From Actinoalloteichus fjordicus (GTDB lineage Bacteria > Actinomycetota > Actinomycetes > Mycobacteriales > Pseudonocardiaceae): a stretch of 64,000 nt of DNA. Numbering within the stretch: position 1 is the stretch's first letter; every line of letters begins with the position of its first letter. The DNA lies in NCBI RefSeq assembly GCF_001941625.1, contig NZ_CP016076.1, positions 5,254,001-5,318,000 of the forward strand, read 5' to 3'. The notes under the pieces are model-generated. The model saw only the letters and a list, made by a program, of their open reading frames with translations. It had not been told where the DNA came from and searched no databases. Position numbers and translations under genes: made by a program. This document shows, piece after piece, positions 10,373 through 25,043 of the stretch.

Positions 10373-11862
10373 GAGGATCTCCTGTCATCGGGTGCGGTAG
10401 GCGCGTTCGGAGTCCACCGACCGCGCAGCACGGTCCCCCACGGGCGGAAGCCGGGATCGAAGACGGCGAGGTCGGCGTCCATGCCGACCTCGACGACTCC
10501 CTTACGGTCGGCGACGCCCGCGACCGCGGCGGGCCTGCTCGTCGCGGCCGTGACCACCTCGGTCAGCGGCCAGCCGAGTTCGTCGTGCAGGTGGGCGAGC
10601 AGTCGCGGCAGCGTGGCGGTGCTGCCGCCGAACGAGTCGGCGCCGACGACCATGCCGACCCCGTCGCCGACCTCACAGCGCACCGTGCCGAGGTCGTACC
10701 GACTGCCCGTCGGCAGTCCGGTTCCCGGCGTGCCGTCGGAGACCACGATCAGGCGGTCGCCGAGACAGCGACGGGCGATCTCCAACAGCTCCGGCGGCAG
10801 GTGATGCCCGTCGGCGATGACCTCGGCGGTGAGTCCGGTGGCGGCCAGGGAGGCCTCCAGCAGACCCGGCACCCGCCACGGGCCGCGTCGCGTCGTGGTC
10901 GACTGACCGCTCCACAGGTGCGTGACGTGGGTGAGGCCCGCGTCCGTCGCGGCGGCGAGATCGGCCGCCGTCGCCTCGCTGTGTCCGGCGGCGACGACGA
11001 TGCCCGCCTCAGCGAATCGGCGGACCGCCTCGATCGCGCCGGGCAGCTCCGGCGCCAGCGTGATCATGCGGATCAGCTCGCGGTGGCTGAGCAGCGCGGC
11101 GACGTCGTCTCGGCTCGGCGCCCGCAGGACGGCCGGATCGTGGGCACCGCACTGGGTGGCGGCGAGGAACGGGCCCTCGAGGTGGACGCCGAGCAGTTCG
11201 GCCGCGTCGGCAGGCCGCGCGGCGGTCCAGATCGGATCGTCCAGCCAGGAGACGAGGTCGGGCACGTCCGAGGAGACCAGGCTCGCCTGCGCACTCGTCA
11301 CGCCGGCGCGGGCGAGGTGCCGCAACACGAGGGTCACGGCGTCGGGGAACCCGACGCCCATGGAGTGAGCGTCGGGGAACCCGACGCCCATGGAGTGAGC
11401 GTCGGGCCCTCCGCCACCCAAGGCGTGAGCGTCGGGCCCTCCACCACCCAAGGCGTGAGTATCGGGCCCTCCACCACCCAAGGCGTGAGCGTCGGATTCC
11501 CCGTCCCCCATGGAATGAGCGTCTGGGAACCCCGAACCCATGGAGATGGCGTGAGCGTCCGGTCCCCCGGCTCCCGCCGTCGCACCGCCCGACCACGCCG
11601 CCGCCCCCTCGGCGGCACGCCCCTCCACGGACCGGCTCGGCCGGTCGAAGGAGTAACCCGCGCCGCCGTGCACGTGCAGGTCGATCAGGCCGGGGGTGAC
11701 CAGTCGACCGTCGAGTTCGATCACTCGCGCTCCGACGGGCGGCTCCCGGTCGGTGAGGTCGACGATCCGGCCGCCCTCGACGTGGACCCCCAGCCCGCGC
11801 CGCACGCCGTCCGGGAGCACCACGGCTCCGCCGATGAGCACGAGTCGGGTGGACTCGATCAT
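10369..11862 (-). CDS. nagA: N-acetylglucosamine-6-phosphate deacetylase with repeat insertion
   Basis: Amidohydrolase that deacetylates GlcNAc-6-P, 497 aa, about 110 longer than usual. Start: ATG at 11862 preceded by GGAGG. Present are the HVHGG metal-binding strand, HLEGPFL, AAGHSEATAADL, THLWSGQ (normally THLFNAM) and the catalytic-Asp segment VVSDGTPGTGLP. The excess length comes from a linker between GGAGYSFD and VTLVLRHLARAG made of 10-residue units of the type DAHSMGVGFP or DAHALGGGGP (see 11341-11556). In actual NagA structures this is a surface loop near the active-site mouth. The altered FNAM motif leaves open a related substrate such as GalNAc-6-P. Confidence 0.87.
   Translation of the reverse strand: MIESTRLVLIGGAVVLPDGVRRGLGVHVEGGRIVDLTDREPPVGARVIELDGRLVTPGLIDLHVHGGAGYSFDRPSRSVEGRAAEGAAAWSGGATAGAGGPDAHAISMGSGFPDAHSMGDGESDAHALGGGGPDTHALGGGGPDAHALGGGGPDAHSMGVGFPDAHSMGVGFPDAVTLVLRHLARAGVTSAQASLVSSDVPDLVSWLDDPIWTAARPADAAELLGVHLEGPFLAATQCGAHDPAVLRAPSRDDVAALLSHRELIRMITLAPELPGAIEAVRRFAEAGIVVAAGHSEATAADLAAATDAGLTHVTHLWSGQSTTTRRGPWRVPGLLEASLAATGLTAEVIADGHHLPPELLEIARRCLGDRLIVVSDGTPGTGLPTGSRYDLGTVRCEVGDGVGMVVGADSFGGSTATLPRLLAHLHDELGWPLTEVVTAATSRPAAVAGVADRKGVVEVGMDADLAVFDPGFRPWGTVLRGRWTPNAPTAPDDRRSS
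11341..11556. repeat. 30-bp in-frame tandem repeat inside nagA
   Basis: Seven units: six of exactly 30 bp (11341, 11371, 11401, 11431, 11461, 11491) and a last 36-bp unit (11521-11556). Units 1 and 2 are identical; the rest fall in a GGGCCCTCC subtype and a GGGAACCC/GGATTCCCC subtype. Every unit begins with GTC/ATC and keeps frame, encoding DAHxxGxGxP repeats on the minus strand. Confidence 0.95.
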
Positions 11863-15893: not shown

Positions 15894-15922
15894 TTGACAA
15901 ACTAATTTGCGGAAACTGCAAT
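15894..15922 (+). promoter_or_regulatory. Sigma-70-like promoter giving a leaderless message
   Basis: TTGACA (15894-15899), 17-bp spacer, TGCAAT (15917-15922). The expected transcription start, about 6-7 nt downstream, coincides with the ATG at 15929. A TTGC-N7-GCAA dyad (15907-15921) overlaps the -10 element and could be the autoregulatory operator. Confidence 0.65.
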
Positions 15923-15928
15923 AGCCGC

Positions 15929-16513
15929 ATGACCGACGACTTCGACGCGGTGCTCGGCGCGATCGGCCCCCGGCTGCGGGAGCTTCGCCGCCGCAGCGGT
16001 GCGACGCTGTCCGCGCTCTCGGCGAGCACCGGCATCCCGATCAGCACCCTGTCCCGGCTGGAGTCCGGACAGCGCAGGCCCACCCTGGAGCTGCTGCTGC
16101 CGCTGGCCAAGACCTACCAGGTTCCGCTGGACAAGCTCGTGGACGCGCCGCCGACGGGAGATCCACGGCTGTACCCGCAGCCCGTGACCAGGCACGGCAT
16201 GACCATCCTGCCGCTGACCAGCAGGCCCGGCGGCCTCCAGGTGTACAAACAGATCATTCCGGGCGGGCCGAGCGACCGCACTCCCGATCCACGCTCACAC
16301 GAGGGATACCACTGGCTGTACGTCCTCGACGGCAGACTGCGGCTGGTGCTCGGCGAGCAGGATCTGGTGCTCTCCGCAGGCGAGGTCGCCGAGTTCGACA
16401 CCCACCTCCCGCACTGGTTCGGCAATGCCGACGCCGAGCCCGTGGAGTACCTGAGCATCCTCGGCCCGCAGGGGGAACGGTTCCACCTCCGCGCCCGGTA
16501 CCGGCGGGACTGA
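15929..16513 (+). CDS. XRE-family regulator with cupin domain
   Basis: 194 aa. An N-terminal XRE helix-turn-helix (RLRELRRRSGATLSALSAS and PISTLSRLESGQRRP, residues 13-52) is joined to a C-terminal cupin_2 barrel (RSHEGYHWLYVLDGRLRLVLGE, then LPHWFGN). Regulators of this build sense small metabolites or metals and often control adjacent detoxification or degradation genes. The ATG at 15929 was chosen because a near-consensus promoter places transcription start at that codon. No obvious target lies downstream except a small remnant, so autoregulation or control of the divergent methyltransferase is likely. Confidence 0.9.
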   Translation: MTDDFDAVLGAIGPRLRELRRRSGATLSALSASTGIPISTLSRLESGQRRPTLELLLPLAKTYQVPLDKLVDAPPTGDPRLYPQPVTRHGMTILPLTSRPGGLQVYKQIIPGGPSDRTPDPRSHEGYHWLYVLDGRLRLVLGEQDLVLSAGEVAEFDTHLPHWFGNADAEPVEYLSILGPQGERFHLRARYRRD

Positions 16514-16521
16514 CCGCCCCC

Positions 16522-16833
16522 GGAACGGGCGCCAAGCGCAGCCCGCGACGTCCCGCCCCGTCACTCCCCGACTCGGGCAGGCCGCATACCTCCGCATCGG
16601 CTTCGGCGATCGACGACGATCCGACCGTCCGGCCGTATCTGGAGAGCGCGGTCTGGCCGGAGCTGCTCGAATCGGCGCGGTCCCGAGGACGTGCAGCAGG
16701 CATGATCGACGAGGAGATCGCCGAGGCCGAGGCGCTGCTGACACCGGGCAGCCCGCGCTACGTCCTCGACGAGGCGGGCTACTACCTCGTGCATCCGACC
16801 ATCCTGGCCTCCGGACGCCGCGCCGATTCCTGA
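16522..16833 (+). pseudogene. Possible C-terminal gene remnant
   Basis: An open frame with coding-like codon use continues +1 relative to the XRE-cupin stop and ends at 16833. Its last 43 residues start at an ATG at 16702 (MIDEEIAEAEALL, later GSPRYVLDEAGYYLVHPTIL). The coding-like character extends upstream of that ATG (YLESAVWPELLESARSRG) but without a start codon or ribosome site. It resembles the tail of a protein whose front has been lost. I do not recognise the family. Confidence 0.35.
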
Positions 16834-16932
16834 TCGAGGAGCTGCGACCGTCGGCGCTGGCGCGAAGGCGAACCCGCCACCCCAGGTGAGACGGCGACGT
16901 GCCTGATCAGGCGCTCGGCAGGCGACTGCGGG

Positions 16933-17964
16933 TCAGCCTGCGCCCGCCGCCAATCGCCTGCGCACCTCCGGTAGCACCTCGGTGCCCAGCCGCCGGACGT
17001 TGTGCAGGATCGCATCGTGGTCGCCGCTGGACTCCGCGTGCAGCAGCACCCGTCGCAGCCCCGGCGTGCTCAGTACCGCAACCACCCGGTCGACACACTG
17101 CTCGACCGGCCCGATCGCCTGGGTCTGGAGGAACAGCTCCGCCAGCGCCTTCGGCGGCGGCTGCCCACCGGGCCGCTCCTCGAGCATCACGTACTCGGAC
17201 TGCGCGTGGGTGAAGAAGGGGACCGTGGTCCCGTGAATCAGCGTGTCGGCCTCGGCAGCCGAGTCCGTGATCTGCGCGATCATCGCAGCACCGTGGGTGA
17301 ACGAGGTCGCGGGAAGCCCACATCGCTCGGCATGTCGACTCACCAGCGCGGCCTGGGCTGCGACGTCCTGATGGAAGAAGAACAGCATCGGCAGCCGGCG
17401 TAGCGCCGCGAGATCAGCGTACGGCGGCGAGGTCGCAGCCACGTACACCGGCGGATGAGGCCGAGTCAGCGGCGTCGGGCCGGGACGAACCTCGGGGAAG
17501 CGATACAGCTCCGAATCGCTCGCGACGGTGCCGGTGAAGGAGTCCAGCAGCAACGACAGGGCCTCGGGCAGGCCGTCTCGCCAGTCGTCCATGCTCCGGC
17601 CCAGGACCGCGTAGTCGACCACCGGACCGCCCCTGCCGATCCCGAGATCGAAGCGGCCGCCCGATAGTTGATCCAGCAGCGCCGTCTGCTCCGCGACGTA
17701 GACCGGTGGATGCGAGGGCAGGATCGTCACCGCCGTGCCGACCCGTAGTCGGCGAGTCCTGCCGAGCAGGTGGCCCGCCAACGTGAGCGCGGAGGGATTC
17801 ACCCCGTAGGAGATGAAGTGATGTTCGGTGGTCCAGAGGGCGTCGAACTCCACCTGTTCCGCCAGGTCGGCGAGCTCCAACGCGAGGTGCAGCACTTCGC
17901 CATCGTCCTGACCGGGGAAGCGATGGGTGAACAGCACCAAGCCGAGATCGGGTCGTTCCCTCAG
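16933..17964 (-). CDS. LLM-class flavin-dependent oxidoreductase
   Basis: Luciferase-like F420- or FMN-dependent monooxygenase, about 343 aa. It begins PDLGLVLFTHRFPGQ, then FDALWTTEHHFISYG, LLGRTRRLRVGTAVTILPSHPP and LDQLSGGRFDLGIGRGGP, all strong LLM signatures. The start is uncertain: GGAGGA (17969-17974) is followed after 4 nt by a CTG at 17964, whereas GTG codons at 18048 and 18045 lack a ribosome site. It is last in the cassette after the FecE-like ATPase, 127 nt away. In the cassette it could N-hydroxylate or oxidise the exported compound, or release metal; this is inference. Confidence 0.87.
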   Translation of the reverse strand: MRERPDLGLVLFTHRFPGQDDGEVLHLALELADLAEQVEFDALWTTEHHFISYGVNPSALTLAGHLLGRTRRLRVGTAVTILPSHPPVYVAEQTALLDQLSGGRFDLGIGRGGPVVDYAVLGRSMDDWRDGLPEALSLLLDSFTGTVASDSELYRFPEVRPGPTPLTRPHPPVYVAATSPPYADLAALRRLPMLFFFHQDVAAQAALVSRHAERCGLPATSFTHGAAMIAQITDSAAEADTLIHGTTVPFFTHAQSEYVMLEERPGGQPPPKALAELFLQTQAIGPVEQCVDRVVAVLSTPGLRRVLLHAESSGDHDAILHNVRRLGTEVLPEVRRRLAAGAG

Positions 17965-18091
17965 CTGATCCTCCGTTTCTGAGCCAGTTCGCGTCGAGAG
18001 CCGACCTGGCTCCGGCGGCGCCGATCCGCGGGGCGGAGCAGCCACCACGGCGGACAGCCGCGCAGACGTGGCCGCCCACGCAGTCGACAGG

Positions 18092-18895
18092 TCAGCCGGG
18101 CCCCACCAGTCGCTCGGCGTCCTGCGGCGACGCGGCGTCGACCTGCGGACGGAACACCAGCTGTACGCAGTCCCCGTCGTCCACCAGGCGCACCGCCACC
18201 CGGTAGACGGGCTCGACGACCTCGGGCGTGAGCACCACCGGGGTCGGCCCGGACCGGGCCACGCTGCCACGATCGAGCAGCACCAGCGAATCGCAGTAGC
18301 GAGCCGCCAGGTTGAGGTCGTGCAGCACGACCACCGTGGTGATGCCGAGCGTGCGCACCAGGTGCAGGACCTCGTGCTGATACCGGACGTCCAGGTGATT
18401 GGTCGGCTCGTCCAGCAGCAGGTGATCCGCCTCCTGTGCGAGGGCACGGGCGATGAGCGTCCGCTGCTTCTCACCGCCGGACAGCGTGGCGAAGCTGCGA
18501 TCCGCCAGGTCCCGCATGCCCACGCGCGTCAACGCGGTGGCGGCGATGCGGTGGTCTTCGGCGGTGTAAGCCTGTAATGCCGACCGATGCGGGGATCTCC
18601 CCAGCAGCACCATCTCCGCAACGGAGACGGGCAGTTCGGGCGAGGCCTCCTGCGCCACCACCGAGATCCGCCGGGCGGCCTCACGACGCGGCAGCGAGGC
18701 GACGGGGGTGTCGTCGATCAACACGGTGCCCCGACGCGGGGCGAGCGCCGCGTAGAGGATGCGGAGCAACGTCGACTTCCCGCTGCCGTTCGGACCGATC
18801 AGGCCGACGACGCCGCCGGAGCGGGCGTCGAGCGCCACGTCGGCGAGCACCGGGGTTCCGTCGTATGCGAAGGACACGTCCGCTGCACTGATCAC
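18092..18895 (-). CDS. ABC transporter ATP-binding protein, FecE/FhuC type
   Basis: 267-aa ATPase for metal-siderophore or cobalamin import. Walker A GPNGSGKST (residues 35-43), Q-loop VVAQEASPELP, signature LSGGEKQRTLIARALAQ, Walker B HLLLDEPTNHLD and the switch His in VVLHDLN are intact. VAEMVLLGRSPHRS is characteristic of the siderophore branch. The gene lies 12 nt after the MFS gene. With the FecCD permease and FecB-like lipoprotein upstream it completes an importer. Confidence 0.93.
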   Translation of the reverse strand: MISAADVSFAYDGTPVLADVALDARSGGVVGLIGPNGSGKSTLLRILYAALAPRRGTVLIDDTPVASLPRREAARRISVVAQEASPELPVSVAEMVLLGRSPHRSALQAYTAEDHRIAATALTRVGMRDLADRSFATLSGGEKQRTLIARALAQEADHLLLDEPTNHLDVRYQHEVLHLVRTLGITTVVVLHDLNLAARYCDSLVLLDRGSVARSGPTPVVLTPEVVEPVYRVAVRLVDDGDCVQLVFRPQVDAASPQDAERLVGPG

Positions 18896-18907
18896 GTCAC
18901 ACCTCTC

Positions 18908-20257
18908 CTACTGCACGGGCGAGGAGGAGTCCTCTGCTGGGTTGCGGCTCGGGTTCCGTTGCGCGGCCGGGTGACCGTGGTCGGCGAGCATCGGAGGAAG
19001 CACGGGCGCGGGCGCGGCGGCCGGAACCGGCCGGGACCGGCGGCGCGGCTCGGGATCGGCGAGATCGCGTGCGCCCGGCACGGCCAGGGCGGCCAGGGCG
19101 GCGCCGATGGTGAGCAGGCCGCAGGCGAGCAGCACCGGGGTCCGGCCGATCTCCGTGAGCGCATACGGCAGCAGGATCAGTCCGAGCGGCGCGACACCGT
19201 GCGAGACCATGAAGTCGAAGGAGAACAGCCTGCCCATCCGCTCCGGCGGCACCTCTCGCTGGATGGCGCTGAACCAGGGAACGTTGAAGGCCTCGATGCC
19301 GATGCCGCCGAGGAAGTAGGCGGTCAACACCAGCACCGCGCCCAGTTGGGGCGACACGGCGGGCAGGGTCAGCGCCAACGGCACCAGTCCATAGAGACTC
19401 AGCCCCACGAAGGCGACCGTGCCGGGTCTTCTCGGGGTCCAGCGCGCCAGCACGAGTGCGGCGATCACCGCGCCCGCCGAGTAGCAGCCCAGCGCCACGC
19501 CGAGGAAGGCGTTGCCGCCCAGTTCATCGCGGCTGATCAGCGGCAGGGCAAGCTGCTGCACGGCGAATCCGAGGGAGAGCCAGACGACCAGCGAGGCGAG
19601 TCCGGCGAGGAACCAGCGGTGCCGACCCGCCTCCCGCAGCACCTCGCGGTAGTCGGCGAACGGGCGGCGCCGGGCGGCGTCGGACGGGGGGCGCACCCCG
19701 CGCGGGAGCCGCAGGGCCACCCCGGCCGAGCCCAGCCAGAGCAGGCCCGTCACCAACAGGGTGGCGGCGCCGCCGATCAGCAGGTACAGCAAGGTCGCCA
19801 GGGTCGGGCCGCCGACCAGCAGCAGTCGGGAACTCAGCGTGGACAAGGCGTTCGCCCGCTGCCGGTCGGCCTCGCCCACCACCTCGCCGACCAGCGCCTG
19901 ATAGGCGCCCCGGAAGATGCCCTCGCCGACCCCCGCGACCAGGACGGCCGCGCAGACCATCGCCACCGAGCCGCTGAACGCCGGTATCGCGGCCAGGACC
20001 GCCGTCCCGCGCACCGCACCGGCCAGGACCAGCACTGTCCGACGCGGATACCCGTCGACGACGACGCCGCCGAGTACCGCGCCCGCGACGAAGCCCACCG
20101 TCCGGGCGCCGAGCACCAGGCCGAGGACCTCGACGCCGCCGTGGGTGTCGAGCAGAAACAGGGTCAGCGCCACCGGGGTGATCGCAGTCGCCGCGCCGGA
20201 GACGGTGTAACTGAGGACTGCCAGCCGGAAACGCCGGTTGCGCAGGATCGAGAGCAT
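18908..20257 (-). CDS. MFS transporter, EntS-like exporter family
   Basis: 449 aa, about 12 hydrophobic segments, start preceded by AAGGA. It belongs to the MFS_3 group that includes the enterobactin exporter EntS: N-terminal SILRNRRFRLAVLSYTVSGAATAITPVAL, motif-A-like GGVVVDGYPRR, and VPWFSAIQREVPPERMGRLFS. The C-terminus has a Pro-rich tail (PAAAPAPVLPP) that is probably cytoplasmic and disordered. Inside an uptake cassette it would export a small ligand that the FecBCD-like system brings back. Confidence 0.9.
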   Translation of the reverse strand: MLSILRNRRFRLAVLSYTVSGAATAITPVALTLFLLDTHGGVEVLGLVLGARTVGFVAGAVLGGVVVDGYPRRTVLVLAGAVRGTAVLAAIPAFSGSVAMVCAAVLVAGVGEGIFRGAYQALVGEVVGEADRQRANALSTLSSRLLLVGGPTLATLLYLLIGGAATLLVTGLLWLGSAGVALRLPRGVRPPSDAARRRPFADYREVLREAGRHRWFLAGLASLVVWLSLGFAVQQLALPLISRDELGGNAFLGVALGCYSAGAVIAALVLARWTPRRPGTVAFVGLSLYGLVPLALTLPAVSPQLGAVLVLTAYFLGGIGIEAFNVPWFSAIQREVPPERMGRLFSFDFMVSHGVAPLGLILLPYALTEIGRTPVLLACGLLTIGAALAALAVPGARDLADPEPRRRSRPVPAAAPAPVLPPMLADHGHPAAQRNPSRNPAEDSSSPVQ

Positions 20258-20283
20258 CGTGTCCTTCTAGAGAGTGAGTCCGG

Positions 20284-21267
20284 CTAGATCGTCGTGCTGC
20301 TGGATCGCGAGTCCGGCCGGACCGTCAGGCCCGGCCGAACCGTCACCGACGGACGCCAGTGGCGGCGGGCCTCGTCGAAGTCACGCGCGGCGGCGACCAG
20401 GAACGCGGCCAACTCGGTCAGGGGGACCGGGTCCAGCCCGAGTTCGCGAAAGGTCGCGGTGCAGGTCGGACAGGTGTTGACCTCGTACACCCGCAGATCA
20501 CCGGTCCGCTCGTCGCGGGCGACGTCCACCCCCGCGAACAGCGCACCCACGGCCTCGGCGGCCCGCTCGGCCAGTTCGCAGACGTCGCGATCCAGCTCGG
20601 CGAGGCTCCGGCCGCCGCCGGGCGCGTTGGAGATCCAGGTTCCCGGCGGCGCGGTGCGCGTCACCGCCGCCACGGCCCGGTGATTCACGCAGAGCACTCG
20701 CGTGTCGCGATGCCCGGCGGGGACGAACGGCTGCACGTAGTACTGCTCCGGGGCGGGATCGAGCGCGGCGACGTGCCGACGCACGGCGGCCTCGTCGGTC
20801 AGGCAGGCCATCCCCCGACCTCGGGAGCTCATCATCGGCTTGGTCACCATCGGATAGCCGCGCCGGGCCGTCCAGGAGACCAGGGTCTCCTCGTCCCGAC
20901 CCCACAGCACCGGGAGGTGAGCAATGCCCGCGCGGTGCAGCAGGGCCGAGTTCAGGTACTTCGACTGGCCCTGCCACAGGGTCATCGCCGAGTTCACCAC
21001 GGGTATCCCGGCGAGCCGCGCGGTCTCCAGCTGGTTCATGCCGAGGACCAGGTAGTCCTCGTACACCCAGCCGAACAGCAGATCGGGCCGCAGCTCGGCC
21101 CCGCCGGTGTGAAACCGGGTGCCCTCGGCGGTCACCTCGATCACCAGCTCGTCGGGATGGACGCGCCGCGCCGCGCCGCCGATGCGCCGGATCTCGTCGA
21201 ACAGGACGCGGTGATCGTCGTCGTCGTCATCGTTGCCGAGCAGGACGATCAACGGTGCATGGACCAT
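20284..21267 (-). CDS. RimK/GshB-like ATP-grasp ligase
   Basis: 327-aa ATP-grasp enzyme that should join a carboxylate to an amine or thiol via an acyl-phosphate. Visible are the N-terminal preATP-grasp fold with a run of six Asp (GNDDDDDDHR, residues 11-20), the adenine-binding YPMVTKPMMSSRGRGM, the QPFVPAGHRDTRVLCVN region and the Mg-binding YEVNTCP near residue 280. The latter is followed by a CPTC motif not usual in RimK. GGGAGG precedes the ATG by 11 nt. Being between a FecCD permease and an exporter, it is the only obvious biosynthetic ligase of the cassette. Confidence 0.87.
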   Translation of the reverse strand: MVHAPLIVLLGNDDDDDDHRVLFDEIRRIGGAARRVHPDELVIEVTAEGTRFHTGGAELRPDLLFGWVYEDYLVLGMNQLETARLAGIPVVNSAMTLWQGQSKYLNSALLHRAGIAHLPVLWGRDEETLVSWTARRGYPMVTKPMMSSRGRGMACLTDEAAVRRHVAALDPAPEQYYVQPFVPAGHRDTRVLCVNHRAVAAVTRTAPPGTWISNAPGGGRSLAELDRDVCELAERAAEAVGALFAGVDVARDERTGDLRVYEVNTCPTCTATFRELGLDPVPLTELAAFLVAAARDFDEARRHWRPSVTVRPGLTVRPDSRSSSTTI

Positions 21268-21305
21268 GTGGACTCGAGCCTCCCGTCGCGCTGATCCGAT
21301 TCGAG

Positions 21306-22400
21306 TCAGGCAGCCGACCGCAGTCGACGAACGAGGAACAGCAGGAAGGGAGCGCCCACCACCGCCGTGACGATCCCCAGCGGCAGTTCCCTCGGCACGA
21401 AGGCCATCCTGGCGATGACGTCGGCCCAGACCAGGAAGGTCGCTCCGATCAGCGCCGCGACCGGCAGCAGCCGACGGTGCACCCCGCCCACGCAGAGCCG
21501 GGCGACGTGTGGCACGACCAGGCCGACGAAGCCGATCCCGCCGGACACGGCGACGACGGCTCCCACGCAGACGGCGACGACGACCAGCGTCTGAGCCCGG
21601 ACCCGTGCGGGCGGACTGCCCAGTGCGTGCGCCGTGTCGTCGCCGAGGGTGAGGGCGTCCAGGTTCCTGGCCCACAGCAGCAGCGTCACGAACGCGCCTG
21701 CCACCAGCAGCCCGGCAATCGCCACCGCACTCCACTCGGCCCTGGTCAGCGAGCCGAGGAGCCAGAACAGCACCGCGCGGGCGCCCTCGGGGGTGTCGGA
21801 GGCGAAGATGAGGAAGCTGGTCGCGGCGTTGAGCACGTAGCCGACCGCGACGCCGGAGAGCAGCAGCCGGACCGAGGTGATCTGACCGCCGCTGCCCGCC
21901 AGCAGGAACACCACCGCCGTCGCGAGCAACGCCCCGATGAAGGCGCTGCCGGTGAGCGAGGTCGCCCCGGTCGAGACCCCGATGCCGAACAGGATGCTCA
22001 ACGCCGCGCCCGTGGAGGCGCCCGCGCTCACACCGAGCAGGTAGGGCTCGGCCAGCACGTTGCGCACCAGGGCCTGCAGTGCGACCCCGGAGATCGCCAG
22101 GGCCGCCCCGACCACGACGGCCAGCAGCACGCGCGGCACGCGGACCAGCCAGATGATGTCGTCGGCGGGCAGGCCGGAGCCTGCCCCGGACCCGAACACG
22201 TGGCCCACGATGATCTGGGCGACGGTCCCCGGCGGGACGGAGACCGGTCCGAGCCCGACGGCGACGGGGATGCTGATCAGCAGCAGCACGCCGAGGCCGC
22301 CGATCCACAGCGCGGAGCGTCGAACGCGTCGCCGGTGGTCCAGGCGGTCGGGAGCCGAGCCGGTCTGCTGTGGGGTGTCGCGAGCGGACACCTGCGTCAT
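21306..22400 (-). CDS. FecCD-family ABC transporter permease
   Basis: 364-aa polytopic membrane protein for metal-chelate or cobalamin uptake. The start at 22400 follows GGAGGAACCGCG. Family marks are RVPRVLLAVVVGAALAISG, NVLAEPYLLGVSAGASTGA, the FWLLGSLTRAEW loop and GGIGFVGLVVPHVAR. About ten hydrophobic helices are evident. A single permease gene implies a homodimer, as in BtuC. It sits between the binding protein and the ATP-grasp gene. Confidence 0.93.
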   Translation of the reverse strand: MTQVSARDTPQQTGSAPDRLDHRRRVRRSALWIGGLGVLLLISIPVAVGLGPVSVPPGTVAQIIVGHVFGSGAGSGLPADDIIWLVRVPRVLLAVVVGAALAISGVALQALVRNVLAEPYLLGVSAGASTGAALSILFGIGVSTGATSLTGSAFIGALLATAVVFLLAGSGGQITSVRLLLSGVAVGYVLNAATSFLIFASDTPEGARAVLFWLLGSLTRAEWSAVAIAGLLVAGAFVTLLLWARNLDALTLGDDTAHALGSPPARVRAQTLVVVAVCVGAVVAVSGGIGFVGLVVPHVARLCVGGVHRRLLPVAALIGATFLVWADVIARMAFVPRELPLGIVTAVVGAPFLLFLVRRLRSAA

Positions 22401-22524
22401 CGCGGTTCCTCCGGGTCGATCGAGCCCGCCGGACCCGACTTGTCGATGCGCGGGCGAGGGGACGACTGCGCGGCAGGGCGCCGCGGCAGAGCCGGGCGAC
22501 GGCACGGGGTTCGCGGCACGACGG

Positions 22525-23544
22525 TCACGAGGAGCCTCGTCCCCCGATCTGCTCGCCGAGCCGCTCCAGCCCGTCCACCGCGAGGGTGCCGTGGCCGGAG
22601 TGGTAGAAGTCCAGCGTCAGGACCTCGCCCGCGCCGACCGCCGGGATGCCCGCCAGCTCGGGCCGCGAGGTGATCGTGTCGCGGACGACCTGTTCGGTGA
22701 CGTCGCCGGGCTCGTACAGCACGATGATCCGTTCCGGAGCCGCGTCGATCAGGGCCTCGGTGTTCGGTTCGAACAGCCGCTCGTCGGTGTCCTCGAAGAC
22801 GTTCGACAGCCCGGCGTAGTCGAGCTGCTGGTGGATCATGCTGCGGCGGCCGTACGCCCCGAGCGGGCTGTCCGCCCCCGCAACGAACACCGCCGCCGTC
22901 GTGCTCTCGTCGGGCGGGGCCGCCTCGGCCGCGTCGCGGACCGCGTCGACCCGCGCTTGCAGATCGGCGACGGCGGCCGACGCCTCGGCCTCGGTCTCGA
23001 GCACGCGGCCCAGCAGCGCGATGTCGGCGTAGACGCCCGCCAGCGGGTCATCGACCTCGGACTGTCCGGCGCCGAAGCCGCCGCAGTAGCCGCTGATGAT
23101 CAGTGTCGGGATGCCCGCTGCGGCCAGGTCCGACGGGTCGAAGTCGTTGAGGCCGTAGCTCACCACCAGGTCGGGCATCGCGTTGATGATCAGTTCACGC
23201 GAGATGTCCCGCGAACTCTGGATGGGTACCTGCTCCGTCGCACCGAGCGGCCCAGCCGCGGCCCCGAGCGGTTCGCCGATCAGCGGGGAGAAGGTGCTGA
23301 TCCGGTCGACGCCGCCTGCGGCGTGCACCAGGGTGCCTGCCTCGCCCCCGATCACGTACAGCCTGCTCGGCGGTGCCGAGATGGTCACCTCGCGACCGCA
23401 GTTGTCCACCGTCAGCGGGTAGCCCGCCGCCGTGGGAGCAGGCTCCGCGACGCCGCCGCACGCGGCGACGGTCAGGACGCTCGCGACGGCGAGGAGCACG
23501 TGACGTGCCCGTCGCCGCGCGGTTGGCCTCACAGGATGCGACAT
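22525..23544 (-). CDS. FecB/BtuF-like iron-chelate-binding lipoprotein
   Basis: 339-aa periplasmic-binding-protein superfamily member. The ATG at 23544 gives a lipoprotein signal with RRRARH followed by a hydrophobic core and lipobox VAAC. The mature part has PLTVDNCGREVTI, typical of Peripla_BP_2 proteins, then PDLVVSYGLND and a long helix linking the lobes. It is the first gene of the cassette and therefore the likely site of regulation; a GTTATC direct repeat lies 63 nt upstream. Ligand unknown; the family binds ferric siderophores, heme or cobalamin. Confidence 0.9.
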   Translation of the reverse strand: MSHPVRPTARRRARHVLLAVASVLTVAACGGVAEPAPTAAGYPLTVDNCGREVTISAPPSRLYVIGGEAGTLVHAAGGVDRISTFSPLIGEPLGAAAGPLGATEQVPIQSSRDISRELIINAMPDLVVSYGLNDFDPSDLAAAGIPTLIISGYCGGFGAGQSEVDDPLAGVYADIALLGRVLETEAEASAAVADLQARVDAVRDAAEAAPPDESTTAAVFVAGADSPLGAYGRRSMIHQQLDYAGLSNVFEDTDERLFEPNTEALIDAAPERIIVLYEPGDVTEQVVRDTITSRPELAGIPAVGAGEVLTLDFYHSGHGTLAVDGLERLGEQIGGRGSS

Positions 23545-23606
23545 GGGACAGATCCGTCCTCTCGTCGTGACCTCGATACCCGATGATGCTTCAGTTTTCG
23601 GCAAGG

Positions 23607-23621
23607 GTTATCGTTATCAAC
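23607..23621. promoter_or_regulatory. GTTATC direct repeat, candidate metal-regulator box
   Basis: GTTATCGTTATCAAC lies in an AT-richer patch upstream of the uptake cassette. Its reverse complement, GTTGATAACGATAAC, partly resembles the actinobacterial Zur box (TGATAAnGATTATCA) and does not match an IdeR/DmdR box. The assignment is tentative. Confidence 0.35.
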
Positions 23622-24060
23622 TTAGCAATGATCGTGATCTCTGGGTAGTGACCGTTTCGGCGCGTCATCTCGGCGTTTCGCACGGCCCGCCTGCCGTCTC
23701 GACGAGACGAGAGGCTCCGTCGACGGCCCTGCGGCACCGTGACGGACGGAGCGCCCCGTCGCGGATCGGGGCGGCGCGCGGAAATCACCGACGCGCCCCG
23801 ACCCGGACGGCCCGCCACCGATTTCTCTTGGTCCGTCGACCGGACCGATATCGACCCGTGATCCGGCGACCGAGCGGGCGGCGACGGGCTTCCGGGCGTG
23901 TCATGGCCGCCGAGAATGCGGACTGCCCGGGCGTCCGAAATTTCGCCGACAGTGGCCGGAAGCGCCTTCCCCGCAATGATCATCAGTGGCATCGCGAGCC
24001 GAGTCGGCGAATGGCGTGAATGCGTCACGAACAAACCATTGACCCGGACCATTCGACTGC
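23622..24060. other. Intergenic stretch without recognised gene
   Basis: About 440 bp between the divergent cassette and LPMO promoters. Short open frames exist on both strands, but none has a ribosome site or a recognisable product. Confidence 0.4.
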
Positions 24061-24076
24061 TAAGGTCTAGACCAAG
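24061..24076. promoter_or_regulatory. DasR-type dre operator
   Basis: TAAGGTCTAGACCAAG contains the perfect core GGTCTAGACC plus the following A. Eleven contiguous positions match the dre consensus ACTGGTCTAGACCACT. DasR is the GntR-family GlcNAc-responsive repressor of chitin genes in actinomycetes. The site is about 180 nt upstream of the LPMO gene. Confidence 0.8.
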
Positions 24077-24254
24077 TTCCCCGGAGTTGGGGCTGAACAG
24101 GCCGAATGGCAGTCGACTGCCGTCGGGATGCCTCGGTCACGGCTCCGACGGAGCTCTCCTCCTCACGTCCCCTGCAGCCGCCGACAAGGGCTTCCGGTGT
24201 CGATGACGTCGGGTCCGGCCCGTTGCCTGCGGCGTCCTCGATGAGGGAGTAGAC

Positions 24255-24770
24255 ATGCGCAAGAAAAGGTTCTCGGCAGCCGTGATCGGCGCCGCAATCG
24301 CACCACTTCTCTTCGTGAGCATTCCGGCGGGCACGGCGAACGCCCATGGATACGTGTCAAACCCGCCGAGCAGGCAGGCGCAATGCGCGGCCGGAACGGT
24401 GCCGTGCGGTGACATCCAATGGGAGCCGCAGAGCGTGGAAGGCCCCAAGGGCCTGACGAGTTGCAGCGGCGGCAACAGCCGGTTCAGCGAACTCGACGAC
24501 GACGGCAAGGGCTGGACGGTCACCCCGGTCGGACGCTCCACCAGCTTCAACTGGACCCTGACCGTCTCGCACGCCACCACCACGTGGCAGTACTACGCGG
24601 GCGGCACCAAGGTCGCCGAGTTCAACGACGGCGGCGCCCGGCCGGGTGAGACGGTCTCGCACCAGGTCGACTTCGGCAACGTGAGCGGCAGGCAGAAGGT
24701 GCTCGCGGTCTGGAACATCGCCGACACGCCGATGGCCTTCTATGCGTGCATCGACGTGAACATCAGCTGA
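24255..24770 (+). CDS. Secreted AA10 lytic polysaccharide monooxygenase
   Basis: 171-aa single-domain copper enzyme that cleaves chitin or cellulose oxidatively outside the cell. The signal peptide runs to residue 30 (GTANA), so the mature protein starts HGYVSNPPSRQAQC; that first His and His106 (in WTLTVSHATTTWQYY) form the histidine brace. Ribosome site GAGGGAG. There is no carbohydrate-binding module. The dre site upstream argues for chitin as substrate and GlcNAc/GlcN-6-P as inducing signal, linking it to nagA and nagB of this window. Confidence 0.95.
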   Translation: MRKKRFSAAVIGAAIAPLLFVSIPAGTANAHGYVSNPPSRQAQCAAGTVPCGDIQWEPQSVEGPKGLTSCSGGNSRFSELDDDGKGWTVTPVGRSTSFNWTLTVSHATTTWQYYAGGTKVAEFNDGGARPGETVSHQVDFGNVSGRQKVLAVWNIADTPMAFYACIDVNIS

Positions 24771-25043
24771 CGAGGAGCACGTCGCTCGGATGACGGACGG
24801 CGCGCCGGGATGCCGGGTGCGGACGACGAACCCGGCCCGGCCGCCCTCCGCACCCGGCGTCCCCCCGGCGCGCGCCCGCCGAGAGGACTCCTTGCGTCGA
24901 ATGCCGGGCGCAGGCTGCCGGACTCCGGGCATAGGACTCGGGCATGGGCCTCGGGCCGCCGGACTCGGGCTCCGCCCGGACGAACCACCGCGCATCGACG
25001 CCGGTCTGAGCGCGGCGGCCCCGCGTCGAGGACCGCGAGCCGA

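Follow-up and report, generated by a model that had tools for sequence, protein, structure and literature searches.

Genes and extent of the block

The window, a 64,000-nucleotide stretch of the Actinoalloteichus fjordicus chromosome, carries six minus-strand genes, all co-directional and with open reading frames, which were assigned to families with Pfam and NCBIfam. An earlier note on this DNA, made from the letters alone, had described these six genes as a minimal metallophore-like make/export/import cassette, and the gene set itself is confirmed by the open frames and the assigned families. The features are listed below.

22525..23544, minus strand: FecB-like substrate-binding lipoprotein, 339 aa (Peripla_BP_2, 67 bits, cut-off 27.5)
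21306..22400, minus strand: FecCD permease, 364 aa (Pfam FecCD, 299 bits)
20284..21267, minus strand: RimK/LysX-like ATP-grasp ligase, 327 aa (Pfam RimK; invariant NDDDD and EVNTCPTC motifs)
18908..20257, minus strand: MFS exporter, 449 aa (MFS_1, 127 bits)
18092..18895, minus strand: FecE-like ABC ATPase, 267 aa, GTG start (Pfam, NCBIfam)
16933..~17964, minus strand: LLM flavin oxidoreductase, accessory (Bac_luciferase, 185 bits)
23545..23640, minus strand: FecB promoter region with a degenerate Zur-like half-site, TGATAAC (PWM)
16517..24011, no strand: block present in the window and missing from the same-genus genome G002 (flank comparison)

Sequences of G002 matched the flanks of the block (15894-16516 and 24012-24809) at 85-87%, with 296 bases between them vs 7,495 in the window. 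As the whole 7.5 kb is missing from G002, the LLM gene is part of the same block as the other five genes; its start is probably the CTG at 17964, which has GGAGG in front. Among plasmid records, 36 gave a match, all below 60%, and the 20 matches listed lay at 28-39%. A tRNA scan and an Rfam scan of the window were both empty. In agreement with the earlier note, no NRPS, NIS-synthetase, nicotianamine-synthase or thioesterase family was matched among the six genes in Pfam and NCBIfam.

In NCBIfam, FecB, FecCD and FecE were each best matched by the models of a putative F420-0 transporter set (TIGR03868/03869/03873), which scored 77, 282 and 273 bits vs cut-offs of 392, 437 and 372, respectively; the BtuC model reached 246 of the required 461 bits and the heme ATPase model 231 of 261. 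Since all these models stayed below the NCBIfam cut-offs, an F420-0, cobalamin or heme importer was rejected, and the plain cobalamin or heme system that the earlier note had named as fatal to its proposal was not found. For the MFS exporter, EntS-like is a loose label, since the EntS model, with a cut-off of 324 bits, gave it no more than 34.

The ligase scored above the Pfam RimK gathering score (52.5 vs 21 bits) and below the curated cut-off of TIGR00768, the RimK family alpha-L-glutamate ligase (107.9 vs 143.4 bits); it reached no curated NCBIfam cut-off, MptN being the best NCBIfam model, and its nearest PDB entries were LysX-type. Its AlphaFold model was set aside at a pLDDT of 41. The unusual CPTC motif noted earlier at the Mg site was verified directly after the E-x-N pair and is invariant in all seven aligned sequences; the LysX, RimK and MptN ligases belong to the same family, but LysX and RimK carry other residues where the window protein has the CPTC loop. 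Homologues in six named relatives were 69-81% identical with invariant NDDDD and EVNTCPTC motifs, and within the actinomycete family the gene is rare (4/390 genomes).

Relatives and the distant gene trio

In 13-21 kb stretches of the six relatives (L021-L026), the ATP-grasp gene was found with FecB, FecCD, MFS and FecE genes, and with a gene termed X and a PLP enzyme gene, in 6/6 cases. The tblastn matches to the window proteins were 63-76% identical for FecB, 74-79% for FecCD, 76-80% for MFS and 70-80% for FecE. A DUF364 gene lay beside the cluster in three of the six, and no match to it turned up in the three Nocardiopsis stretches (13 kb for L022). No LLM homologue was found in the six stretches or in 16 other X loci examined, and the LLM was therefore rejected as a core enzyme. 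The co-conservation that the earlier note had proposed as a check thus holds for the ATP-grasp gene, which is kept with the transporter, and not for the LLM gene. The nearest LLM homologues in the family were 59-68% identical and belonged to another genus; that of G335 adjoins a zincophore-type cluster, with a weak Zur-like site of 14.9 bits ~200 bases upstream.

The window's genome itself contains X, an SbnA-like PLP enzyme and DUF364, 1.96 Mb from the block:

Chromosome 3,309,703-3,312,614: trio of X, PLP enzyme and DUF364, a separate gene run behind a predicted Zur box

Compared with the relatives, this X was 50-56% identical in 6/6, the PLP enzyme 61-65% in five (the L021 match fell in two pieces of 56/46%) and DUF364 60-65% in three; PF04016 (DUF364) was detected in this trio and in K. 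persicum. FNPPA, an NPP motif, was invariant in nine aligned X sequences. With the AlphaFold model of X (pLDDT 86), the top Foldseek matches were the carbamoyl N-methyltransferase Asc-Orf2, a gentamicin methyltransferase, N6AMT1/KMT9 and PrmC, at TM 0.53-0.62 by query length, and the protein scored below the curated NCBIfam cut-offs of HemK/PrmC. By its predicted fold (class I) and NPP motif, X is a putative HemK/PrmC-type N-methyltransferase; a CntL-like nicotianamine synthase was considered for X and rejected, as Pfam, NCBIfam, PDB and Foldseek all led to HemK/PrmC-type N-methyltransferases. The best curated model for the PLP enzyme was SbnA (TIGR03945, 130 bits, below the cut-off of 350). 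SbnA and CmnB were among its PDB relatives, outscored by cystathionine beta-synthase and cysteine synthases. Among the six window genes and the trio, no CntM/CntL-type family was named and no IucA/IucC synthetase or NRPS was found.

Gene X occurred in 51/390 family genomes and in 4/4 of those with the ATP-grasp gene, for which chance would give 2.6e-4 assuming independent genomes, which they are not. Two same-genus genomes carry the trio and no ATP-grasp gene, so the trio presumably works without the ligase. In L085, X-DUF364-PLP lies beside an importer 63-80% identical to that of the window, with the ATP-grasp gene absent; in the family genome L082, X-PLP-DUF364 is followed by an MFS gene. 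Gene neighbourhoods of X were inspected for 20 of the 51 family genomes that carry it (15, three ATP-grasp types, that of the window and G335) and in one from outside the family (G744). A GHMP kinase, with its GHMP Pfam domain shown, was detected by tblastn in 11/16 other X loci and in L107; it was sought and not found in the window's genome by a search without a positive control, so that this absence shows nothing. In a PLP tree of 22 loci, the enzymes of the window's genome, the same-genus genomes, L082 and L022-L025 grouped together with a support of 1.00; trees were midpoint-rooted and excluded L021, whose PLP match is broken, and L079, represented by X alone.

Predicted Zur sites

The first search for boxes was guided by the actinobacterial Zur consensus and was not blind, being made after the upstream sequences of the relatives had been seen; a count of sites inside and outside the clusters served as the control. 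The PWM was built from six training sites out of 16 own-genome sites, including those at L28/MRF and AztB: L034, a perfect match that lacks a clear target gene, together with L036, L037, L045, L046 and L047, which adjoin transporter, L28 or MRF genes. The training set did not include L035 (one mismatch), L038-L042, L044, L048, the site at 7,021,326 and the X site L043. With this matrix, made from other sites of the same genome, the box TGAAAATTATTCTCA scored 24.4 bits and starts 154 bases before X, which places the trio operon behind a predicted Zur box and hence in the putative Zur regulon. Zur-like sites of at least 14 bits were found at 23/24 X loci (cluster span plus 700 bases), the one in L071 being weak (14.1 bits) and L082 having none in its cluster span; the control count gave 38 sites in 210,718 inside positions vs 4 in 252,786 outside.

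At the FecB promoter of the window, the best score was 8.3 bits (region p = 0.056), no site of at least 12 bits was found upstream, and a Zur box there was rejected as not significant. The TGATAAC half-site starts 75 bases before this FecB; for the box of the FecB gene in Saccharothrix (L026) the distance is 82 bases. Elsewhere, the window's genome has a further, Zur-marked FecBCD set, whose FecB is retained in the two same-genus genomes that have the trio and no ATP-grasp gene.

A proposed zincophore pathway and its alternatives

Judging from sequence comparisons, it is fairly likely that the block serves as an accessory module that finishes and transports a zincophore made without an NRPS and under Zur control, the metal probably being zinc. 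Upon zinc shortage, the trio would build a chelator core derived from amino acids: the PLP enzyme would exchange the beta-substituent of a serine-type substrate for an amine, X would methylate a nitrogen of the core, and DUF364 may perform one further step, a chemistry that we infer from distant homology (the SbnA model, 130 vs 350 bits). The ATP-grasp ligase would form an amide bond between the core and another amino acid or acid, the MFS protein would export the finished product, FecB, FecCD and FecE would recapture the zinc complex, and the LLM would be an optional extra. The finishing and transport half would in this strain stand apart from the core-building half; it counts against this explanation that block and trio are not physically linked in the window's genome, that the FecB promoter of the block scored below significance, and that two same-genus genomes keep the trio, along with the FecB of the Zur-marked second FecBCD set, without the ligase. 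The missing DUF364 matches at the Nocardiopsis loci and the missing or weak Zur-like sites of L082 and L071 also weigh against it. The make/export/import idea of the earlier note is supported by the joint occurrence of ATP-grasp, MFS and FecBCD genes in 6/6 relatives and by the Zur-like boxes of the wider family, which are expected of a metallophore system. The cassette is not minimal or self-sufficient, since conserved enzymes for the biosynthesis are encoded 1.96 Mb from it.

The trio could instead be an EDDS-type (aes-like) set, with the block added to modify and transport ethylenediamine-disuccinate or a closely related aminopolycarboxylate, which we regard as unlikely. An SbnA-like enzyme could form C-N bonds of the EDDS kind, and the gene order of L082, with its MFS gene, fits such a set, but X has a methyltransferase fold and EDDS is not known to carry a methyl group. 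Passages of two papers speak for this alternative, describing the EDDS of Amycolatopsis japonicum as Zur-controlled and made differently from NRPS/NIS routes (PMC4993170, PMC6103462). Slightly less likely still, the block may act independently of the trio, as an island acquired for import and export of another molecule or for uptake of foreign metallophores, which the ligase would modify or inactivate. The separate location, the promoter of the window FecB with its non-significant score, the two same-genus genomes that keep the trio without the ATP-grasp gene and the Zur-marked second FecBCD set all favour an island; against it, the same five genes cluster with X and the PLP enzyme in 6/6 relatives and the window's genome does contain the trio.

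Very improbable is the chemistry of the earlier note, in which no enzymes beyond the ATP-grasp ligase and the LLM are needed to make a hydroxamate or thiolate chelator of iron, copper or zinc. The LLM gene lies inside the same 7.5 kb block and its G335 homologue beside a zincophore-type cluster with a Zur-like site, but the absence of an LLM match from the stretches of the six relatives and from the 16 other X loci, together with the location of the conserved core enzymes elsewhere, speaks against it. We give least credence to an importer of a cofactor (cobalamin, F420-0 or heme) with a ligase making a cofactor conjugate; the F420-0 set did provide the best models for all three importer proteins, but their scores fell far below the curated cut-offs and operons of the family carry Zur-like boxes.

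Beyond the finishing-and-transport module, we propose tentatively, with slightly more doubt than confidence, a new NRPS-/NIS-independent zincophore family. Its pathway would combine an SbnA-like enzyme that forms C-N bonds with a HemK-like N-methyltransferase and DUF364, and be split in the window strain. The family would have two forms, with a GHMP kinase and kinase-free; the latter, in seven known genomes, would add the amide-forming CPTC ATP-grasp ligase and its own exporter and importer. If true, the few zincophore routes named below would be joined by a further biosynthetic logic, that of a Zur-marked enzyme set carried by roughly one in eight genomes of the actinomycete family. The unusual ligase would gain a testable role, and the window strain would have a zincophore pathway spread over two chromosomal loci with an exchangeable finishing and uptake half, an example of how mining genomes one cluster at a time can overlook a divided pathway.

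SbnA (staphyloferrin B) and CmnB (capreomycin) act in the 2,3-diaminopropionate route and are related to the trio PLP enzyme, which yet misses the SbnA cut-off; no SbnB-type or NIS gene, unlike in the staphyloferrin B route, was present among the annotated cluster genes. No paper on this gene set was found by title or abstract among open PMC papers. The zincophore routes named in the portions consulted of two papers are coelibactin, EDDS and the opine type (PMC6103462, PMC7438024). Compared by description, the [S,S]-EDDS zincophore of A. japonicum, in the passages cited above, shares with the proposed system Zur control, the lack of typical NRPS/NIS enzymes and an actinomycete host. The opine-like zincophores (staphylopine, pseudopaline and bacillopaline; CntL/CntM) are, according to sections of one paper, small and amino-acid-derived with an MFS exporter, like the system proposed for the window, and have an FecCD importer in some actinobacteria (PMC7438024); they use CntM/CntL, whereas the window and trio have SbnA-like, HemK-like, DUF364 and ATP-grasp proteins instead. 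A heavy-metal chelation role was proposed for the DUF364 protein Dhaf4260 from genome context in a 2010 report (PMC2954201). Its tie here to a Zur-marked cluster is a sharper context, and would, if the pathway is true, give DUF364 a concrete, testable role.

Gene content and conservation of the six-gene block

The genome carrying the window is a single contig of 7.12 Mb, of which the window spans 5,254,001-5,318,000. All six co-directional genes claimed in the earlier note, which read them as a minimal metallophore make/export/import cassette, were found to be present and open on the minus strand, each matching its expected Pfam family above the gathering score.

22525-23544, minus, FecB (Peripla_BP_2)
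21306-22400, minus, FecCD (FecCD)
20284-21267, minus, ATP-grasp (RimK)
18908-20257, minus, MFS (MFS_1)
18092-18895, minus, FecE (ABC_tran)
16933-17964, minus, LLM (Bac_luciferase), with a probable CTG start preceded by GGAGG

As the coordinates place these genes just 12 to 127 bases apart, the spacing fits a single transcript. The ATP-grasp ligase was rarely encountered: among 60 relatives only ten weak matches were obtained besides the window, the best 32% identical, with none in either same-genus genome (G001 and G002), and at 1e-20 or better it was detected in 4/390 Pseudonocardiaceae genomes, three of which (68-78% identity) are additional to the window's own. A scan with alignment A1 of one genome per species (84,980 species), relying on two short peptide patterns that divergent relatives may therefore escape, identified six ATP-grasp loci, from three Nocardiopsis, Kibdelosporangium persicum, K. 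aridum and Saccharothrix luteola. FecB, FecCD, ATP-grasp, MFS and FecE were clustered in all six, at 63-81% identity, and occurred in this order in five, with methyltransferase genes inserted in both Kibdelosporangium loci; in the Saccharothrix locus they were rearranged. The CPTC motif was invariant in the ligases of the window and the six relatives (7/7). The co-occurrence proposed in the earlier note thus held for the ligase and transporter genes in 6/6 relatives and failed for LLM, no homologue of which was found in the six stretches, one of them (L022, Nocardiopsis) just 13 kb long and ending right after FecE.

In G002, the genes flanking the block are neighbours. The sequence up to 16516 and that from 24012 onwards are 85-87% identical there, separated by 296 bases versus 7,495 in the window. 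The block including LLM was either gained in the window strain or lost in G002 as one unit. In G001 the flank matches were scattered, so that no empty site was seen. A second FecBCD set of the window's genome lies at 4.48 Mb, its FecCD gene preceded at about 0.4 kb by a Zur-like site (Zur, the zinc repressor), and both same-genus genomes keep a FecB like that of this set (95% and 84%).

Several other genes were observed around these loci. Adjoining the block at 24255-24770 (plus strand), in a region conserved in G002, is a small secreted protein with HGYVSNPPSRQAQC that by eye resembles an AA10 polysaccharide monooxygenase. The two Kibdelosporangium ATP-grasp clusters are directly followed (L024 13655-18727 and L025 13655-18672) by a dioxygenase-like gene, another MFS gene and another FecBCD-like set, which is preceded by a Zur-like site scoring 23.2 bits. 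A P-type ATPase of the metal type, carrying an HMA domain, lies near the K. persicum cluster (L018 241-2463).

A methyltransferase, a PLP enzyme and DUF364 as companion genes

Gene X, an N6AMT1/PrmC-like methyltransferase, and an SbnA-like PLP enzyme were present in all six ATP-grasp loci, and DUF364 was found in three (L024, L025 and Saccharothrix L026). In Nocardiopsis sp. CNT312 (L021 7004-7517) the PLP match is in two overlapping pieces, a frameshift or assembly error. X is 238-267 aa long (alignment A3), with an FNPPA motif invariant across nine sequences. It matched HemK2/PrmC-type models below their cut-offs and its profile hit N6AMT1 in the PDB (E 8e-7), while the closest structures to its AlphaFold model (pLDDT 86) were carbamoyl N-methyltransferase Asc-Orf2, gentamicin methyltransferase, N6AMT1 and PrmC. 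For the PLP enzyme, SbnA was the best curated model at a score far below cut-off, and in the PDB cystathionine beta-synthase and cysteine synthases lead, with CmnB and SbnA also among the relatives.

The K. persicum X (52%) and PLP enzyme (64%) matched adjacent genes at 3,309,715-3,311,679 of the window's genome, where X, PLP and DUF364 are consecutive (stretch L033), 1.96 Mb from the block; this trio occurs at 77-93% in both same-genus genomes.

L033 9703-10479, X
L033 from about 10684 to 11709, PLP enzyme
L033 11706-12614, DUF364

At 1e-15 or better, X was detected in 51/390 family genomes and in 2/396 genomes drawn from the phylum, the window's own being one of the two. In 16 X neighbourhoods without ATP-grasp, each of at most 20 kb, PLP and DUF364 adjoined X in 15, and a GHMP kinase, an MFS2 exporter, and FecB, FecCD and FecE matches were each found in 11. 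The kinase was found neither in the six ATP-grasp loci nor in the window's genome, the latter searched without a positive control. It may supply a substrate of serine or threonine type in phosphorylated form. In kinase-type clusters it is flanked by DUF364 and the PLP gene (L075 7865-8848, and likewise in ten further loci). In G105, X stands alone with a Zur-like site (L079 9528-10214) and no PLP or DUF364 match in 19.5 kb; five other genomes of that genus also carry X.

At one locus, L085, X-DUF364-PLP and MFS2 lie beside FecB, FecCD and FecE 63%, 76% and 80% identical to those of the window, without ATP-grasp, and the window's importer clade is therefore independently linked to the trio. A PLP tree of 22 loci grouped the window's genome and same-genus genes with L082 and L022-L025 (support 1.00), adjoining L026 and L085 (0.95). 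The X tree recovered the same group (0.99) but joined L026 and L085 to the X genes of kinase-type clusters, so that the two trees disagree on the history.

Zur-like sites at the trio-type operons

Zur targets in Streptomyces coelicolor are described as including zinc ABC, COG0523/yciC and rpmB2-type genes (PMC6103462). Zur-like palindromes were seen in the relatives' upstream sequences, and TGAWAAYSRTTWTCA with at most two mismatches gave 16 sites in the window's genome versus 2 for a reversed-pattern control. One begins 154 bases ahead of X. Among the others are sites in the gap separating an L28 gene from an MRF-type GTPase, which both pass the NCBIfam cut-off, at an AztB zinc permease, which passes its own, and ahead of FecCD and SBP_bac_5 genes; the rest of the 16 had no obvious target gene. 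With a matrix built from six of the genome's sites, those of X and the window excluded, its X scored 24.4 bits. In the 24 X loci scanned, the cluster spans plus 700 bases (210,718 positions) contained 38 sites of at least 14 bits, versus 4 in the 252,786 positions outside, and 23/24 loci carried an inside site, the weakest being L071 (14.1). In the sole locus without one, L082, the site precedes ABC-transporter genes and is 4.8 kb upstream of X, and the remaining outside sites (L107, L026 and L084) are near ABC-ATPase or CobW-like matches. The window's FecB promoter was a clear negative (best matrix score 8.3 bits, region p 0.056), with a half-site TGATAAC 75 bases ahead of the gene; the Saccharothrix FecB has a Zur-like box that scores 17 bits and lies 82 bases ahead. 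Elsewhere in the window's genome (contig C1, 3,824,001-3,864,000; L113 and L114), a FecCD gene, an SBP_bac_5 protein and several matches to ABC ATPases have Zur-like sites nearby, making this another import region for zinc starvation and possibly a second metallophore system.

Proposed pathway, known systems and the place of LLM

Beyond the observed gene content, conservation, split location and Zur-like boxes on trio-type operons, family membership suggests what each protein would do: the PLP enzyme would form a C-N bond on a serine-type substrate, X would methylate nitrogen, ATP-grasp would form an amide bond, MFS would export the product and FecBCD would re-import it. The ligand might, as a guess, be a small zinc chelator, either aminopolycarboxylate-like or an amide.

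Judged on the genes examined in block and trio, opine-type, NIS and NRPS systems differ from the present one. The EDDS system is nearest in regulation and logic, a likeness by description rather than gene comparison, and possible kinship to its genes is the main threat to novelty. No paper on the X/PLP/DUF364/ATP-grasp gene set was found among open PMC papers; a heavy-metal chelation role for DUF364 was proposed in 2010 (PMC2954201), and the classes covered by antiSMASH 7 (PMC10320115) include metallophores of the aminopolycarboxylic acid and opine-like kinds.

The closest family homologues of LLM are in genus g5 (59-68%). One, in genome G335, adjoins MFS2-PLP-GHMP-DUF364-X and is preceded at about 200 bases by a weak Zur-like site of 14.9 bits; the five other contexts examined had no such cluster, though one of these five (L108) has part of a ZnuB-type match at a distance of 8 kb. 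LLM as a core enzyme was rejected, as it was found neither in the six relatives' stretches nor in the 16 X neighbourhoods without ATP-grasp; with a zincophore-type cluster in one of the six contexts examined, it may instead partner zinc-starvation genes only occasionally. The G335 cluster (L107, contig C155, 9185-19155) also has FecB/FecCD matches and Zur-like sites, several matches being in pieces in this draft assembly.
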